A stretch of 64,000 nt of DNA, from contig NZ_CP101322.1 in the NCBI RefSeq assembly GCF_024300625.1, positions 1,811,992 to 1,875,991 of the forward strand. The letters are read 5' to 3'. The position numbers and the translations under genes are program-made. Of the stretch, positions 31,037 through 45,342 are shown piece by piece (within the stretch, counting starts at the first letter, position 1; every line of letters starts with the position of its first letter). This DNA comes from Halovivax gelatinilyticus (lineage in GTDB: Archaea > Halobacteriota > Halobacteria > Halobacteriales > Natrialbaceae). Under the pieces are notes generated by a model, which did no database searches, had not been told where the DNA came from, and was given only the letters and a program-made list of their open reading frames with translations.

Positions 31037-31170
31037 TTAGTTTCTGTTCATCGCCTGGACGTCCGGGAGGCTTAGTGGACAGCCGCAGGGATCGGCGTTG
31101 TGGCGCTCCGGACCGAACGTTCGGACGAGGACGGTCGGCTCGCCGCGATGGAGGGTAGGTTTCTCTTTGG
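31037..31170 (-). pseudogene. Hybrid zinc-finger gene remnant (cassette copy 1)
   Basis: Read on the minus strand it gives GEPTVLVRTFGPERHNADPC, which belongs to protein B, and then switches to GCPLSLPDVQAMN, the end of protein A. The switch lies at the shared PCGC codons, so an internal deletion between the overlapping B and A genes probably made it. The N-terminal CPKC is lost and no nearby start codon is in frame. It is the leftmost of eight cassette copies. Confidence 0.7.
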
Positions 31171-31273
31171 TCGCATGTGAATCAGGTGTGGTAAACCGGC
31201 AGGGTCTGAGCGGGTCATCCGACGGTGCTTCCCGCGCGGGGAGGCTGCTCTCGCGGCGGTCCGATTCGTCCCG

Positions 31274-31298
31274 ATTACACCTATTACACTCGATTACA
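31274..31298 (+). promoter_or_regulatory. Three ATTACA direct repeats, probable operator
   Basis: ATTACA occurs at 31274, 31283 and 31293, 9 and 10 bases apart, so all three face the same side of the helix. They end 12 bases before the winged-helix gene at 31310. A similar triple repeat precedes its paralogue at 38405, suggesting autoregulation by the antitoxin. Confidence 0.6.
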
Positions 31299-31309
31299 TA
31301 GTGGCGTGT

Positions 31310-31669
31310 ATGCCCATCGATATCGAACGCTTCGAGGAGGGACCCGCGGAGGAACTCAGAGCCCGGGGCCGAACGAACGCGGCGGAGATCCTCTCGTTTC
31401 TCGCGACGTCTCCCGACCGGGCGTTCACACCGAAGGAGATTCACGACGCGACCGGCGTCGCCCGCGGGAGCGTCGGCGTCGTCCTCTCCCGACTGGAAGA
31501 CCGCGACCTCGTCCGCCACCGCGGCGATTACTGGGCCATCGGCGACGTCGACGATGTCGAAACGACGCTCAGTTCGATCCGAACCGCGCAGGCGGCGACC
31601 GACCGGTTCGGTCCGGAAGACCCCGACGAATGGGGCCCCGGCGTCGAATCCGACGGCGAGGACGAGTAG
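31310..31669 (+). CDS. Winged-helix antitoxin-like protein, 119 aa
   Basis: The start is MPIDIERFEEGP, equivalent to MPIDIETFESTP of the paralogue at 38405; a GTG three codons upstream is less likely. Residues 25-75 form a MarR-like winged helix (ILSFLATSPDRAFTPKEIH, VARGSVGVVLSRLEDRDLVR). The acidic C-terminus probably contacts the toxin. The toxin gene directly downstream is broken, so this antitoxin may be an orphan. Confidence 0.78.
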   Translation: MPIDIERFEEGPAEELRARGRTNAAEILSFLATSPDRAFTPKEIHDATGVARGSVGVVLSRLEDRDLVRHRGDYWAIGDVDDVETTLSSIRTAQAATDRFGPEDPDEWGPGVESDGEDE

Positions 31670-31998
31670 ATGCGAGACGAACAGGGAAGCGTCTGGTGGC
31701 ACCACACAAATCCGACCCCTCGTATCGACCGTGGCTGATCGTCAGCGACCGATCGCATCCGTTCGCTCTCTAGGAGTGTATCGCCCTCGCGATGACGACG
31801 CAACGACACGCGGATGGGCTCGCCGTTTCCGCCGATGACTGGATTCGAGGCGGATCGAACCGGGACGCGTACGTCTCCCCGTGGTACGTGACGACGATCA
31901 AACGACGCGATCTCGATACCCAACAGGGGACGCTCTCTGCCTCGATCGTGGCCGAAGCCGTCGACGCACTCCACAGCTACACCGCTTTTGTCGAGTGA
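31670..31998 (+). pseudogene. Broken PemK/MazF-like toxin gene
   Basis: The start ATG follows the antitoxin stop directly. The frame shifts near 31695 and continues as DPSYRPWLIVSDRSHPF, meets an in-frame TAG near 31771, then continues as DDWIRGGSNRDAYVSPWYV to a stop at 31998. These pieces align with the intact toxin at 37714-38052 (NPRPWLICNNDNHPF, DEDWVEGGMPRQSYASPWAV). At least two disabling changes make it a pseudogene. Confidence 0.8.
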
Positions 31999-35765: not shown

Positions 35766-35912
35766 CTACTCGTTCATCGCTAGGACGTCTGCAAGGGACA
35801 GTGGACAGCCCCAGGGCCTGGCGAGGTGGGTGTGTGGGCCGGTGGACGTGACCGCGGTCGCGGGGTAGTCACACGCCGGACAGTTCGGGAAGGGCGAATC
35901 GTGTTCGGTCAT
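35766..35912 (-). CDS. Zinc-finger protein A, copy 5, 48 aa, with one Cys lost
   Basis: The protein starts MTEHDSPFPNCPACDYP and ends SLADVLAMNE. The second zinc ligand pair, PCGC in the other copies, is PWGC here, so one of four ligands is gone. The gene overlaps its upstream partner B by 4 bases (ATGA). The family is a CPxC-type micro-protein of unknown function. This copy may be non-functional or bind zinc differently. Confidence 0.72.
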   Translation of the reverse strand: MTEHDSPFPNCPACDYPATAVTSTGPHTHLARPWGCPLSLADVLAMNE

Positions 35913-36106
35913 GGGCTCCTCACCAGGTGTTTGACCTCGTAGGCGGTGAGTCCACAACCGCAGGGATCGGCGTTGTGGCGGTCGGGACCGAACGTTCTCA
36001 CGAGAACGATCGGCTCGCCGCACTTCGGACAGGGCGGGTAGGCATCTCTCGGTGATCGTATTTCGGTCGGGTGGTGTCTCTCGGTGGCGCAGGCGTGACA
36101 ATCCAA
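35909..36106 (-). CDS. Zinc-finger protein B, copy 5, 65 aa
   Basis: The protein starts MDCHACATERHHPTEI, an N-terminus with an extra CxxC absent from other copies. The common part has CPKCGEPIVLVRTFG, RHNADPCGCGL and YEVKHLVRSP. Four Cys in CPKC and PCGC would make one zinc site; the N-terminal CHAC may add another. Its stop overlaps the start of A, so both are made from one message. Confidence 0.75.
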   Translation of the reverse strand: MDCHACATERHHPTEIRSPRDAYPPCPKCGEPIVLVRTFGPDRHNADPCGCGLTAYEVKHLVRSP

Positions 36107-36357
36107 TTTCTTCGTCGCTCGCTCGCGGCCGCGTTAGCTCTGTTACGGCGATCCCGATCAGCCCGGACCGTCGAGACATCCTCGTCGCTGGGGACAGGAC
36201 GAGACGGAGATCGATGGATTTTGAGCGGCGTGAACGCTGGCGCCGACGCGATGTACGCCGAAACTCGATCGTCCTCGATGCAACCGTAGGTAGCGTCTCC
36301 GTCGCCGGGACGGGCACGTACCGAACTGTTTTATCGTTGGCACTCTTCTCCCCACGT

Positions 36358-36513
36358 ATGGGAGTGTACGCCGACGAAGCGAGCGAATTTGCGCGCTCGA
36401 CCGATGCGACCGATGACGAGCGCGAGCCGTTGGGTACCCGCCTCCGCGGCATTGCAGCCGAACTCGACGTCGACTCCGTCGAGGAAGTTCGATCGCTACG
36501 CGAACGACGATGA
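36358..36513 (+). CDS. vapB: VapB-like antitoxin, 51 aa
   Basis: This small acidic protein (MGVYADEASEFARSTDA, then LGTRLRGIAAELDVDSVEEV) precedes the PIN gene with a 4-base overlap. The C-terminal helix with LRERR is probably the toxin-binding part. A TATA-like TTTATCG lies about 24 bases before the ATG, a leaderless promoter. The family is not obvious from sequence; the role is inferred from its position. Confidence 0.68.
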   Translation: MGVYADEASEFARSTDATDDEREPLGTRLRGIAAELDVDSVEEVRSLRERR

Positions 36514-38904: not shown

Positions 38905-40131
38905 ATGACCGATTACGACGAACTGTTTGCCGCTACCGCCTCCGAAACCAGCGTTTTCGCCGAGAAACGCGCCCTCGACCCGTTGACCGACCCCGACGAG
39001 ATCGTTTCGCGAGAGACACAGGAACGCGACCTCGCGACGATTCTGAACGGCGTCGACGAGGGCTATCTGCCGCCGACCGTCTCGATCTACGGTCCGCCCG
39101 GCACCGGCAAGACGCTGACGACCCGCCGCGTCTGTCAGGCGTTCGCCGATCGCCACGACGACGTCGCCGTCGAGTACGTCAATCTCAAAGAGTGTCGGAC
39201 GCTGTTTAGCGCCGCCAACGAGATCCTCGCCGAACTCACCGGCGCGAAAAAGCGCGCCTACGAGGGCCTCGACGGCGTCTTCGAGGCGATCTGGGACGCC
39301 CTCGAGGACTATCCCGCCTGGACGATCTTTCTTCTCGACGAGATCGACCAGATCACCCACGATACCAACTACAACCCCAACGAGTTTTTCTATCGGCTGT
39401 TACGCGGCGAGGGAAAACGCCGCCGCGGGATCGATCTCTCGGTGTGGGTGGTGAGCAACCAGCTGCTCGAAGTCGACCTTCGCCTCGACAGCCGCGTCCA
39501 GAGTGCGATGAGTGACGACCAGGTCTTCTTTCCGCCCTACGGCGTCGACGAACTGGAAGCGATTCTCGCGCCGCGAATCGAGCGGGCCTTTCAGGAGGGG
39601 ACGATCTCGCCGGCGACGATCGAGTACGGCGTCAGCGAAGCCGCCCGGCGCTGGGGCGACGCGCGCAAGGCGTTGACGCTGGTGCGTCGCGCCGGCGAAC
39701 AGGCGAACGAGCGCGGACTCGAGCGGGTGACGCGGGCGTGTTTCGACGCCAATCTCGGTGCGACCGATCGGGAGGTGACGACCGAGAAACTGCTGGCGCT
39801 GCCGGTCAATCACTTTCTGGTGCTCGTCGGGGCGACGGGGATGAATCGCCACGGCGAGATCAAACAGCCGGTGACGACCGCCGAGATCCACCGCACGCTC
39901 GAATCGTCTGCCCTGGCAACGCAACTCGATCTCAGCAAGCGGACGATTCGAACCACCATCACCGACCTCGAGACGATGGGCCTCGTCGAGACCTGGATCG
40001 ATTCGCGCGGCCGTGATGGGCGAGTGAAACAGATCGAAACGACGTTCGAACCTCAGTGGGTCCGCGACGTGCTGGGGACGTATCTGGCCGATTCGGCGTA
40101 TCTCGACGGCTGGTCGCTTCGTGAGGAATAG
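38905..40131 (+). CDS. orc1: Orc1/Cdc6-type AAA+ initiator protein, 408 aa
   Basis: Walker A is YGPPGTGKTLTTRRV near residue 66, Walker B is TIFLLDEIDQI near 140, a sensor-1-like VWVVSNQL follows, and a C-terminal winged helix has LDLSKRTIRTTITDLETMG. Length and motifs fit archaeal Orc1/Cdc6. With the terminase two genes on, it may serve a provirus or plasmid rather than the chromosome. No convincing origin repeats were found beside it. Confidence 0.9.
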   Translation: MTDYDELFAATASETSVFAEKRALDPLTDPDEIVSRETQERDLATILNGVDEGYLPPTVSIYGPPGTGKTLTTRRVCQAFADRHDDVAVEYVNLKECRTLFSAANEILAELTGAKKRAYEGLDGVFEAIWDALEDYPAWTIFLLDEIDQITHDTNYNPNEFFYRLLRGEGKRRRGIDLSVWVVSNQLLEVDLRLDSRVQSAMSDDQVFFPPYGVDELEAILAPRIERAFQEGTISPATIEYGVSEAARRWGDARKALTLVRRAGEQANERGLERVTRACFDANLGATDREVTTEKLLALPVNHFLVLVGATGMNRHGEIKQPVTTAEIHRTLESSALATQLDLSKRTIRTTITDLETMGLVETWIDSRGRDGRVKQIETTFEPQWVRDVLGTYLADSAYLDGWSLREE

Positions 40132-40266
40132 GCCTGTTTTCCGGACCGTCAGGATCCTTTACTTTCACCGCGGTAACTCAATCCTTAACGTCGGCGGCAA
40201 CCAATCCAATGTGTGCATCCGCGGCCCGTCGCCTTCGAGCGCACACGGGTGCGGTAGCACACCACT

Positions 40267-40539
40267 ATGACTGCCGATTCCGTTTCCGACCGTACCGACC
40301 GCGACGAGGTCCTCGACCGCCTCACCGACGTCATCGACCTGGCCCACACCCGCATCGATCGCTTCGACCCCGACTCGCCCGCAGAGGAAGAACTCCTGAT
40401 CAAGTGGATCCGCGCGTTAGCCTCGCTTTCCGGCCAGTATCGCCAACTGCTCAACGACAGAGAACTCGACGAGATGGCCGCCGAACTCGAGCGCCTCTCC
40501 TACGATGAGGACACCGCGACGTCCGACACGGGTGCATGA
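40267..40539 (+). CDS. Small helical protein before the terminase, 90 aa
   Basis: The protein is acidic and helical (VLDRLTDVIDLAHTRIDRF, LIKWIRALASLSGQYRQLL). It overlaps the terminase gene by 4 bases. Position and size suggest a small-subunit or adaptor role for the terminase, but there is no DNA-binding motif I can name. Confidence 0.68.
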   Translation: MTADSVSDRTDRDEVLDRLTDVIDLAHTRIDRFDPDSPAEEELLIKWIRALASLSGQYRQLLNDRELDEMAAELERLSYDEDTATSDTGA

Positions 40540-42083
40540 GAAAGAGACGAAGCGCGATCCGGCGTGACATCGACGCTCTCAAACGCACCCGGCGATCGGC
40601 CGACGCCGCCGCGACTGACGCCCCGGCGGTCGTGACCGTCGAGTGGCGCGAGGCAGATCCCGTCGCGCGACCGACGGGAACCAGCTACGACGCCGAGTCG
40701 GCGACGCTCACCTACGACCTCTGGGGGCCCCAACAGGCGTGTCTCGAGGCCCTCGAGAGCGAGGAGGTCGACATCGTCGCCAATCTCGGGGGCTACGCCA
40801 GCGGCAAGACCATCTTCGGTGCTCGCTGGACGATCGCCCAGGCGCTGGCTCATCCTGGAAGTCGGTTTCTCGCGATGGGGATGACGTTTTCGGAGGCACG
40901 CAACACCACGTTTCGCAACCTCTGTGAGCAGTTGCCGGGTGATCGGACGGAGCTGTTGACCCGGTCGTTTAACGGGCCCGAACAGAGCCCGATCGTCGCC
41001 GACTTCAATCGGAGCGAGTACCGACTCACGCTGACGAACGACACGACGATAATCCTCGGTTCGGCCGATACGTGGAACCGGTACGCGGGCGACGCATTCG
41101 GCGGTATCTGGCTCGACGAACCCAGCCACTACCAGACCGATCTACACGACCTCCTGGAGATGGTTGGGTCGCGCCTGCGTGGCGTCGACGGACCCAAAGT
41201 GCAGTGCTGGACGCTGACCGGCAACGGCTACAACGACGCCTGGGAAATCCTCGAACAGCGCCAGGATTCGACCGGCAATCCGATCGGCCTCGAGATCGAA
41301 CTGATTCGGTCGTCGACGCTCGAGAACCCGTATCTCGACGCCGGGACGGTCGAGCGCTTCAAGCGCCAGTACGACGGCACCGAACGCGAAACGCAGACGC
41401 TGCACGGTGGGTTCGCCGAAGCCGAGGGGCTCGTCTATAGCGACTTCCGCCGCGACACCCACGTCATTCCCCACGCCGACGCTCGTGACCGCGTCGCCGA
41501 CGACTGGCGTGCCTACGGCTACGACGCCGGCTGGAACGATCCACGCGTCCTCGTCGAAGTGGGGAAAACGCCCTACGATCAGCTGGTCGTCCTCGATGAG
41601 TTCTACGAATCCGAATGCCACCTCGACGACGCCATCGAGTGGCTCGACTCCCGCCCGCGGGGGATCATCTACGGCGATCACGCCCCCGACGATCTCGACC
41701 GGTTTCGACGTGCCGGCTACGACGCCACGGCGGCGACGCGCAATCTCGATGCGGGTATCGCAGAGGTCCGCCGCCGACTCGAATCCGACGGGAGGCGGCC
41801 AATCCGGACGACGCCCTCGGTGGTAACATTTGTAGGGTCGCCCCGACAGATCGAAGCCCAACAAGCGGAATACAGGCGGACCCGTGCGAAAGAAGCCCAG
41901 GCACAAGCGGCTGCCCGTGAGGCGGCTCCTGAAGGAGCCGTTGGCCTGCTCGTGTCGGATCGGTGTGAACGGCTCGTCCGGGAGTTCCACGGCTATAAGG
42001 GCGAACACGTCGGGAAATCGGGCGCTCAGGATCACGCACTCGATGCGCTTCGCTACGTCTGTATGGGCGTTGCAGGCCGGTAG
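40536..42083 (+). CDS. Phage-type terminase large subunit, 515 aa
   Basis: The ATPase half has Walker A NLGGYASGKTIF (83-94) and Walker B GGIWLDEPSHY (Asp194, Glu195). The nuclease half has three acidic sites: YGYDAGWNDP (Asp330), GDHAPDDLD (Asp381) and DHALDALRY (Asp499/503). It would package DNA in a virus. No portal, capsid or integrase genes are nearby, so it is a remnant or has another use. About 50 residues (420-469, Gln/Ala/Arg-rich) seem to be extra before GLLVSDRCERL. Confidence 0.87.
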   Translation: MRKRRSAIRRDIDALKRTRRSADAAATDAPAVVTVEWREADPVARPTGTSYDAESATLTYDLWGPQQACLEALESEEVDIVANLGGYASGKTIFGARWTIAQALAHPGSRFLAMGMTFSEARNTTFRNLCEQLPGDRTELLTRSFNGPEQSPIVADFNRSEYRLTLTNDTTIILGSADTWNRYAGDAFGGIWLDEPSHYQTDLHDLLEMVGSRLRGVDGPKVQCWTLTGNGYNDAWEILEQRQDSTGNPIGLEIELIRSSTLENPYLDAGTVERFKRQYDGTERETQTLHGGFAEAEGLVYSDFRRDTHVIPHADARDRVADDWRAYGYDAGWNDPRVLVEVGKTPYDQLVVLDEFYESECHLDDAIEWLDSRPRGIIYGDHAPDDLDRFRRAGYDATAATRNLDAGIAEVRRRLESDGRRPIRTTPSVVTFVGSPRQIEAQQAEYRRTRAKEAQAQAAAREAAPEGAVGLLVSDRCERLVREFHGYKGEHVGKSGAQDHALDALRYVCMGVAGR

Positions 42084-43879: not shown

Positions 43880-44026
43880 TTAGTCGTTCATCGCCTGGAC
43901 GTCTGCTAGAGTTAGTGGACAGCCACAGGGCCTGGCGAGATGGGTGTGCGGGCCCGTCGAGGTGACGTCGGTCACCGGGTAGTCACACGCCGGACAGTTC
44001 GGGAAAGGTGAGTCGTCTTCCGTCAT
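43880..44026 (-). CDS. Zinc-finger protein A, copy 8, 48 aa
   Basis: MTEDDSPFPNCPACDYPV through PCGCPLTLADVQAMND, with all zinc ligands. It is nearly identical to copy 6. The 4-base overlap with gene B is intact. This is the rightmost and most complete cassette. Confidence 0.8.
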   Translation of the reverse strand: MTEDDSPFPNCPACDYPVTDVTSTGPHTHLARPCGCPLTLADVQAMND

Positions 44027-44373
44027 GGGCTCCTCACCAGGTGTTTGACTTCGTAGGCGGTGAGTCCACAGCCGCAGGGATCGGCATTGTGTCGTTCGGG
44101 GCCGAACGTTCTCACGAGAACGATCGGCTCGCCGCACTTCGGACAGGGCGGATAGGCGTCTCTCGGATCGTGTGACGGACGGGTGGTGCGTCGCGGCGGC
44201 GCGGGGGTGACGCGCACCTTCTTCGACGGTCGGTCGCTCATCGCGGCGGGGGTCCAGTGGTAGTGGGGCGGCCCGTACGGGTCGAGTCCTCTGACAGACT
44301 CACGAGTGGGCGCATAGTGGTGGTAGGCGGGCTGTGCGAACGGTTTATGGGTGTGTGGTTTGTAGCGTGTCAT
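44023..44373 (-). CDS. Zinc-finger protein B, copy 8, 116 aa (long form)
   Basis: The long frame begins MTRYKPHTHKPFAQPAY, a His/Tyr/Pro-rich 44-residue extension not seen elsewhere. An internal ATG at 44241 (MSDRPSKKVRVTPAPP) gives a 72-residue form. The core has CPKC and PCGC and ends YEVKHLVRSP. A structured element lies 29 bases upstream of the long start, so the long form may be the regulated one. Confidence 0.72.
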   Translation of the reverse strand: MTRYKPHTHKPFAQPAYHHYAPTRESVRGLDPYGPPHYHWTPAAMSDRPSKKVRVTPAPPRRTTRPSHDPRDAYPPCPKCGEPIVLVRTFGPERHNADPCGCGLTAYEVKHLVRSP

Positions 44374-44402
44374 GGCTATCCGATAAACCCCAAGTAGGGT
44401 TC

Positions 44403-44477
44403 GGAAGCCACGCTCCGGGTGTCTACAGCACCCGGGGCATTTCTGCCCGATCCGGCGAACCGGCGAGCGTGGCTTCC
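44403..44477 (-). ncRNA. Four-way-junction RNA-like element (leader or small RNA)
   Basis: Four perfect helices nest exactly. P1 is 12 bp (44403-44414 with 44466-44477), enclosing three hairpins: 44415-44421/44429-44435 (7 bp, 7-nt loop), 44436-44439/44444-44447 (4 bp) and 44452-44455/44460-44463 (4 bp). Read on the minus strand the two small loops are GAAA and UUCG, both known stable tetraloops, which favours the minus strand as the RNA. The element stands 29 bases upstream of gene B copy 8. A fifth small hairpin (AACCC/GGGTT) lies between them. Confidence 0.6.
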
Positions 44478-44600
44478 AGGCTGGTAGAGGGGCTAATGTG
44501 TATTATAATTACTGGAAATAAGAGTAAATCAACCATCGAAAGTGAGAGATGAGATTCGAGCCAGAATCTTAATGTGAATCGGCTGATGAGTGCATTATCT

Positions 44601-45342
44601 ATGGATGCTGTGGTACTTGCAGCCGGGAAAGGCACGAGACTTCGTCCGCTGACGGACGACAAGCCAAAGGGGATGGTGGAGGTCAACGGCAAGCCGATTC
44701 TCACGCACTGTTTCGATCAGCTGGTTGATCTCGGCGCGGAAAACCCGTCGTCGTGGTGGGGTATCTGAAAGAGAAAATCATTGATCACTATGGGTACTTG
44801 TACGAGGGTGTGCCAATCACCTATACGCACCAGCGTGAACAAAACGGTCTCGCTCACGAGTTACCCACTGCGGAGGAACACGTCGACGATGACTTCATGC
44901 TGATTCTCGGGGACAATATCTTCCAGGCCAATCTGGAGGACGTTGTTCGTCGCCACACGGAGGACCGTGCCGACGCGGCATTTCTCGTCGAGGAAGTGCC
45001 GTGGGAGGAGGCAAGTCGGTATGGTGTTTGCAACACGAATCAGTACGGCGAGATTACGGATGTAGTGGAAAAACCGATGAGCCGCCGTCGAATTTAGTGA
45101 TGACCGGCTTTTACACTTTTACGCCAGCGATCTTCCATGCGTGTCATCTGGTTCAGTCAAGTAATCGGGGCGAGTACGAGATCAGCGAGGCAATTGATCT
45201 ATTGATTCAGAGCGGACGGACGATCGATACGATCAGCATGGATGGCTGGCGGATCGACGTCGGCTATCCGGGGGATCGGGACGAAACGGAGCGTCGATTG
45301 AAGAACGAAATTGAAGCCGTACCAGCACCGGCTGACGACTGA
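44601..45342 (+). pseudogene. Frameshifted sugar-nucleotidyltransferase gene
   Basis: The start MDAVVLAAGKGTRLRPLTDD is the signature of RmlA/GalU-like NTP transferases. The frame breaks near 44740 (GAENPSSW; one missing A in the AAAA run would restore GAEKPVVVVGYL). It breaks again near 45078 (a missing G would give VEKPDEPPSNL). The remainder reads LVMTGFYTFTPAIFHAC and GWRIDVGYPGD. Both defects are single-base deletions, so sequencing error is a real alternative to true decay. It would make NDP-sugar for the adjacent glycan genes. Confidence 0.8.

Follow-up and report, generated by a model that had tools for sequence, protein, structure and literature searches.

The NiCo (czcD) riboswitch is a metal sensor built as a four-way junction. 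In archaea, very few cis-regulatory RNAs are known (PMC7247131, PMC8241225), and the fluoride riboswitch is the only experimentally shown archaeal riboswitch cited (PMC8241225). Here, we analyzed a stretch of 64,000 nucleotides from Halovivax gelatinilyticus (contig NZ_CP101322.1, positions 1,811,992 to 1,875,991; “the window”), which contains a compact four-way junction at positions 44403–44477. We favor, without regarding it as secure, the interpretation that this element forms the 5′ leader of an mRNA encoding zinc fingers and belongs to an undescribed haloarchaeal class of cis-acting structured RNAs, in which translation would be controlled by strand exchange. The class as such is well supported, with no transcript, probing, or expression data at hand.

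Folding prediction arranged both strands of the element into a helix enclosing three hairpins. The minus-strand fold reached −50.4 kcal/mol compared to a mean of −28.7 kcal/mol for shuffled sequences (z = −6.80), and none of 200 shuffles was as good. Since the covariance model matched the minus strand with an E-value of 4.5e-16 and the plus strand with only 0.86, the minus strand is the meaningful one, and all features described below lie on it unless stated otherwise. No other strong copy was found by this model within the window. The closing helix (P1) reported in the initial annotation is real and does enclose three hairpins, but it comprises 13 bp instead of the claimed 12 bp. According to the fold, it consists of the 5′ strand GGAAGCCACGCUC (44465–44477), also backed by compensatory changes in P1, and the 3′ strand GAGCGUGGCUUCC (44403–44415), which is at the same time an alternative partner for the start-codon region. 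The earlier description of three hairpins with few unpaired bases, including GAAA and UUCG loops on the minus strand, was borne out by the fold, which contains P2 (CCGG-UUCG-CCGG, 44452–44463), P3 (GGGCA-GAAA-UGCCC, 44435–44448), and P4 (CGGGUG-CUGUAGA-CACCCG, 44416–44434) and leaves four junction bases unpaired. Judged from fold and alignments, P2 is variable, weak, or missing in many copies. In P3 the motif GAAAUG(C/U)CCC is conserved, and the stem of P4 is nearly invariant. A further hairpin, P5 (AACCC/GGGUU, 44386–44401), is located between the cloverleaf and the AUG, and every standard pair type was found at its pairs across copies. As annotated initially, 29 nt separate the end of the element from the ATG at 44373, where a zinc-finger ORF of 116 amino acids starts (CPKC..PCGC; 44023–44373). 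This ORF is the first gene after the leader and has paralogues behind other leaders. It is followed by a second zinc-finger ORF of 48 amino acids (CPAC..PCGC; 43880–44026), whose start overlaps the stop of the first by 4 nt (ATGA) in the commonest layout of the class.

DNA similarity revealed 12 copies of the element in the 3.70-Mb genome of the same organism, and a covariance model built from these copies detected 25 copies at E ≤ 5e-5, which are scattered over the chromosome and all have the same strand relative to the gene. Because of these additional copies, the fold at 44403–44477 cannot be attributed to chance. One of the copies (L031, around 2000–2560) is close to an apparent CRISPR array with the repeated ORF pattern VDFLPAAT. 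In a first sample of the order, matches were obtained in 39 of 195 genomes, mostly Natrialbaceae, with up to 20 or more copies each; a pattern scan identified Halovivax, Natrinema, Natrialba, Halopiger, Halostagnicola, and others as carriers within this family. A broader covariance model had matches in 103 of the 391 sampled Halobacteria genomes, representing 42 of 86 genera and eight families, with the caveat that chance may account for some of the single matches around E 1e-5 to 1e-4 seen in certain families. A sample of the phylum searched with this model yielded no match outside the same order. Haladaptatus and its relatives harbor one outlying family of the leader, which occurs in more than 40 places on Haladaptatus megaplasmids. 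When Halovivax asiaticus was compared with orthologues in presumed H. ruber (L226 and L239), the genes were 92% identical and the leaders were different, as if exchanged.

The layout of the individual copies is uniform, with a TATA box about 29 nt upstream followed by the P1–P4 cloverleaf, P5, and the AUG. In the window, a TATA-like box (ATTATAATA, 44501–44509) and an upstream CCAGTA motif (44510–44516) form the putative promoter, whose motif and distance are common to about 200 copies. In about 200 Natrialbaceae copies, the ATATAA of a CAGTAG-ATATAA promoter starts at about −31 relative to the first G of P1. Position −1 is a pyrimidine in all 205 Natrialbaceae copies. Based on this fixed distance and the pyrimidine, we infer that transcription most likely begins at the first G of P1 (44477), although this start has not been mapped experimentally. 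As position −1 is a purine in Haladaptatus, the exact start may differ there. Transcription was not measured at all, and hence the RNA itself is inferred from the promoter position only. No obvious Shine-Dalgarno motif was found ahead of the leader AUG in the Natrialbaceae copies. In most copies the element is found on the coding strand, downstream of the promoter and ahead of the start codon, as demanded of a cis-acting mRNA leader. The proposal of a leader regulator in the initial annotation is supported by compensatory changes and by more than 200 copies in which the strand, the distances to TATA box and AUG, and the kind of downstream gene are all fixed. Outside the stretch from promoter to ORFs, pairwise identity indicated nothing common between copies on either side.

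Conservation of the structure was evident from sequence comparison. In an alignment of 100 Natrialbaceae copies, none of 500 shuffles reached the observed covariation. When 83 copies covering all families were aligned, changes on both sides were seen for 27 of the 32 pairs. The cells of this kind numbered 258, compared to 87 in shuffled alignments and no more than 64 in slid controls. These alignments were fitted to the model and therefore lean toward its structure. A sign independent of the fitted alignments comes from the P4 loop. The end bases of 6-nt loops were C..A in 77 cases and U..G in 50, whereas C..G and U..A did not occur (p = 1.5e-36), as expected for an isosteric C-A+/U-G wobble. 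The P4 loop in the window carries C and A at this conserved wobble position. Inversion of the loop may be one mutational route between the two forms, which are reverse complements, but as a cause it cannot explain the lack of mixed ends. The absence of compensatory changes in homologues, named in the initial annotation as part of what would refute it, did not materialize: such changes are abundant, and homologues were found across haloarchaea. Its other condition, homologues mapping to IS ends, was not fulfilled either, as similarity is lost beyond the promoter and ORFs and phages and viral contigs gave no match.

Two further roles of the P4 loop were considered and rejected. As a barcode, the absence of identical loops among 579 same-genome pairs was not significant (14 of 2907 pairs between genomes were identical, and about 2.8 would be expected within genomes). 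Regarding kissing interactions between copies, reverse-complement loops exist in the whole set, but no exact partner was seen within the own genome, and the limited variety of loops suffices to account for them.

Ahead of the AUG, the bases duplicate the P1 5′ strand (GAAGCCAU against GGAAGCCAC), which gives the P1 3′ strand two possible partners. In the window, the start-codon region AGCCAU (44372–44377) can pair with GUGGCU (44406–44411) of the P1 3′ strand, and when the 3′ half was folded in isolation, this strand paired with the region of the AUG in every one of the 205 copies. The median energy gap between the two pairing states is 4.8 kcal/mol out of −47 kcal/mol. The complementarity is maintained where the sequences vary. 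P1 strands with a single G instead of two go along with a single C ahead of the AUG (10 of 10 copies versus 7 of 195), and GGUUUCC accompanies ACCAUG (6 of 6 versus 16 of 189). These counts include related copies repeatedly, and the 10 of 10 may represent perhaps four or five independent events. Own partners outperformed permuted ones (0 of 200 permutations). Both segments also co-vary between families (GGCUUCC/GAAGCC, GGUCUUCC/GAAGACC, and GGCUUUCC/GAAAGCC), with runs of 6.1–6.7 bp for own partners compared to 4.0 bp when partners were swapped across families. A column-wise test of the alternative helix within the Natrialbaceae gave only weak support (4 of 500 shuffles on one measure, others not significant), because the strand hardly varies and its changes are often indels.

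From this complementarity we infer a switch, in which a closed P1 would leave the AUG free, while upon opening of P1 its 3′ strand would pair with the pre-AUG sequence, extend P5, and cover the AUG. A factor binding to the conserved P1–P4 domain would set the balance; it might be a metabolite, a metal ion, or a protein, and its identity and the sign of the control are unknown. Translation of the downstream zinc-finger ORF would presumably follow via the ATGA overlap. In Haladaptatus, opening of P1 costs a median of 12 kcal/mol, and strand exchange would thus need help in this genus.

The genes behind the leader were parsed for 208 copies. A leader ORF followed by a zinc-finger (CxxC) ORF was present in 157 of them, with the 4-nt ATGA overlap in 104 of these, whereas in 16 copies the zinc-finger ORF is directly behind the leader, as it is in the window. 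For the other 35, the parsing rule used gave no clear zinc-finger ORF. The leader ORF is typically 30–60 codons long. In many copies another hairpin, with an A-rich loop, is made up of its codons 8–14, and the codons there are nearly fixed; this conserved hairpin, which contains an invariant AAA codon, lies 20 nt past the AUG. The conserved lysine is encoded by AAA in 201 of 205 cases compared to 63 of 128 elsewhere. This bias and the nearly fixed codons indicate that nucleotides, and not only amino acids, are conserved.

The leader class serves several unrelated zinc-finger types, with CPxC..PCGC (103) and CYRC..CPDC (65) as the dominant classes. In Haladaptatus it directly precedes SWIM zinc-finger genes, in a related genus it is followed by a leader ORF and a protein with four CxxC motifs, and one copy elsewhere has a PadR-like regulator behind it. 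The ORFs behind the leaders of Natrialbaceae are mostly unannotated. No Pfam or NCBIfam family matched the zinc fingers above threshold, and a fold comparison of the CPxC/PCGC class gave only weak zinc-ribbon matches. In Halostagnicola, a domain joined to the zinc fingers behind the leader (L060, L064, L100, and L279) resembles HalOD1 below the cut-off (E = 5e-4 at best). Within the window, the C-termini of two minus-strand ORFs (35766–36452 and 31037–31705) repeat both leader-adjacent zinc-finger genes; these ORFs have no leader in front and are likely partial or decayed copies. A sugar-nucleotidyltransferase gene divergent from the leader (44602–45342, plus strand) is seemingly broken into three frames. 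An Orc1/Cdc6-like gene and a phage-terminase-like gene (38905–42083, plus strand) are upstream neighbors of the zinc-finger operon.

That zinc-finger genes of unrelated types always follow would also fit a protein-responsive leader. Similar to the leaders of ribosomal proteins, it would be bound by the small zinc-finger proteins, or by a partner common to them, which would thereby tune their own translation. We consider this possible but rather doubtful. The P4 loops, which differ between all copies of one genome, could provide specificity among paralogues, but this distinctness is not significant; moreover, the same core precedes unrelated proteins, which a shared factor would explain better than many cognate proteins. 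A weak resemblance of one zinc-finger class to ribosomal protein eS26 also speaks for such feedback. The CYRC class matched eS26 with a profile E-value of 0.019 and a profile-comparison probability of 36%, and most top matches of its predicted fold were eS26 (best E = 0.06, probability 0.99), with no single comparison being significant alone. To our knowledge, haloarchaea lie outside the groups with canonical eS26. The Pfam eS26 model had no match in the genome. In Saccharolobus, eS26 binds in the ribosomal mRNA exit channel in a reversible manner and disfavors leadered mRNAs (PMC11698992), which makes the likeness a lead worth testing, but no more. It is highly speculative, and in our judgment improbable, that dozens of paralogous leaders form a haloarchaeal regulon gating the start codons of eS26-like and other zinc fingers that would act in the mRNA exit channel, with a feedback loop between leader and product setting which mRNAs initiate.

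An unregulated function seems unlikely to us, in which the fold would act constitutively, shielding the 5′ end or placing the ribosome at a start codon that lacks a Shine-Dalgarno motif. The start of P1 at the predicted first nucleotide would suit this role, as would P5 ahead of the AUG and, in many copies, the hairpin with the AAA codon after it, and initiation at 5′ UTRs without Shine-Dalgarno pairing is established in Haloferax volcanii (PMC3986360). Yet such a role does not account for the pre-AUG sequence following the P1 3′ strand, as it does in five or more forms. There is little reason to assume that the cloverleaf is an independent trans-acting small RNA merely transcribed ahead of the gene. 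Its stability and compactness, its place at the transcript's 5′ end, and its multiple copies are compatible with this idea, but it is conserved as one unit together with P5, the pre-AUG copy of P1, and the AUG, and no terminator was identified behind P1. A mobile element end, MITE, or DNA cruciform, the transposon alternative of the initial annotation, is hardly tenable despite many dispersed copies with terminal inverted repeats and the numerous megaplasmid sites in Haladaptatus, since pairwise identity has dropped to the background level of about 0.26 some 40 nt upstream and again directly past the ORF, no terminal repeats mark unit borders, orientation, promoter, and ORF are all fixed, different species share orthologous loci, and no match of the leader was found in phages or viral contigs.

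In agreement with the earlier statement that no known RNA class could be recognized, no Rfam family reached its curated covariance threshold, and up to E = 1 the only Rfam match of the leader was a meaningless antisense one to a viral miRNA (E = 0.027, below threshold). The class is also undescribed in the openly licensed papers searched. With up to 25 copies per genome in about a quarter of the sampled haloarchaeal genomes, a copy of its own closing helix at the start codon, and largely unannotated genes behind it, the leader represents a testable model of translational control in organisms whose 5′ UTRs mostly do without Shine-Dalgarno pairing, and a way to approach dozens of uncharacterized zinc-finger proteins.

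With translational riboswitches that operate by strand exchange, our proposed switch shares the position in a 5′ leader, a P1 closing a multi-branched conserved domain, an alternative pairing over the start region, which is inferred here, and widely dispersed copies. In contrast to these, it is archaeal, lacks a shown ligand and an Rfam match, and covers the start codon instead of a Shine-Dalgarno motif. The compact four-way junction resembles that of the NiCo (czcD) riboswitch, and a link to metals is possible because all downstream products bind zinc; however, the leader has different genes and no match to this family in Rfam. The encoded proteins are short and contain two CxxC motifs like small haloarchaeal zinc-finger proteins such as HVO_0758 (PMC10716476), but match no curated family, and one class resembles eS26. 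Finally, ribosomal-protein leaders, including the S15 leader of Halobacteria (PMC7247131), are likewise structured archaeal 5′ leaders with covariation and possibly a protein ligand, whereas the leader described here precedes small zinc-finger genes instead of annotated ribosomal proteins and occurs in many copies per genome.
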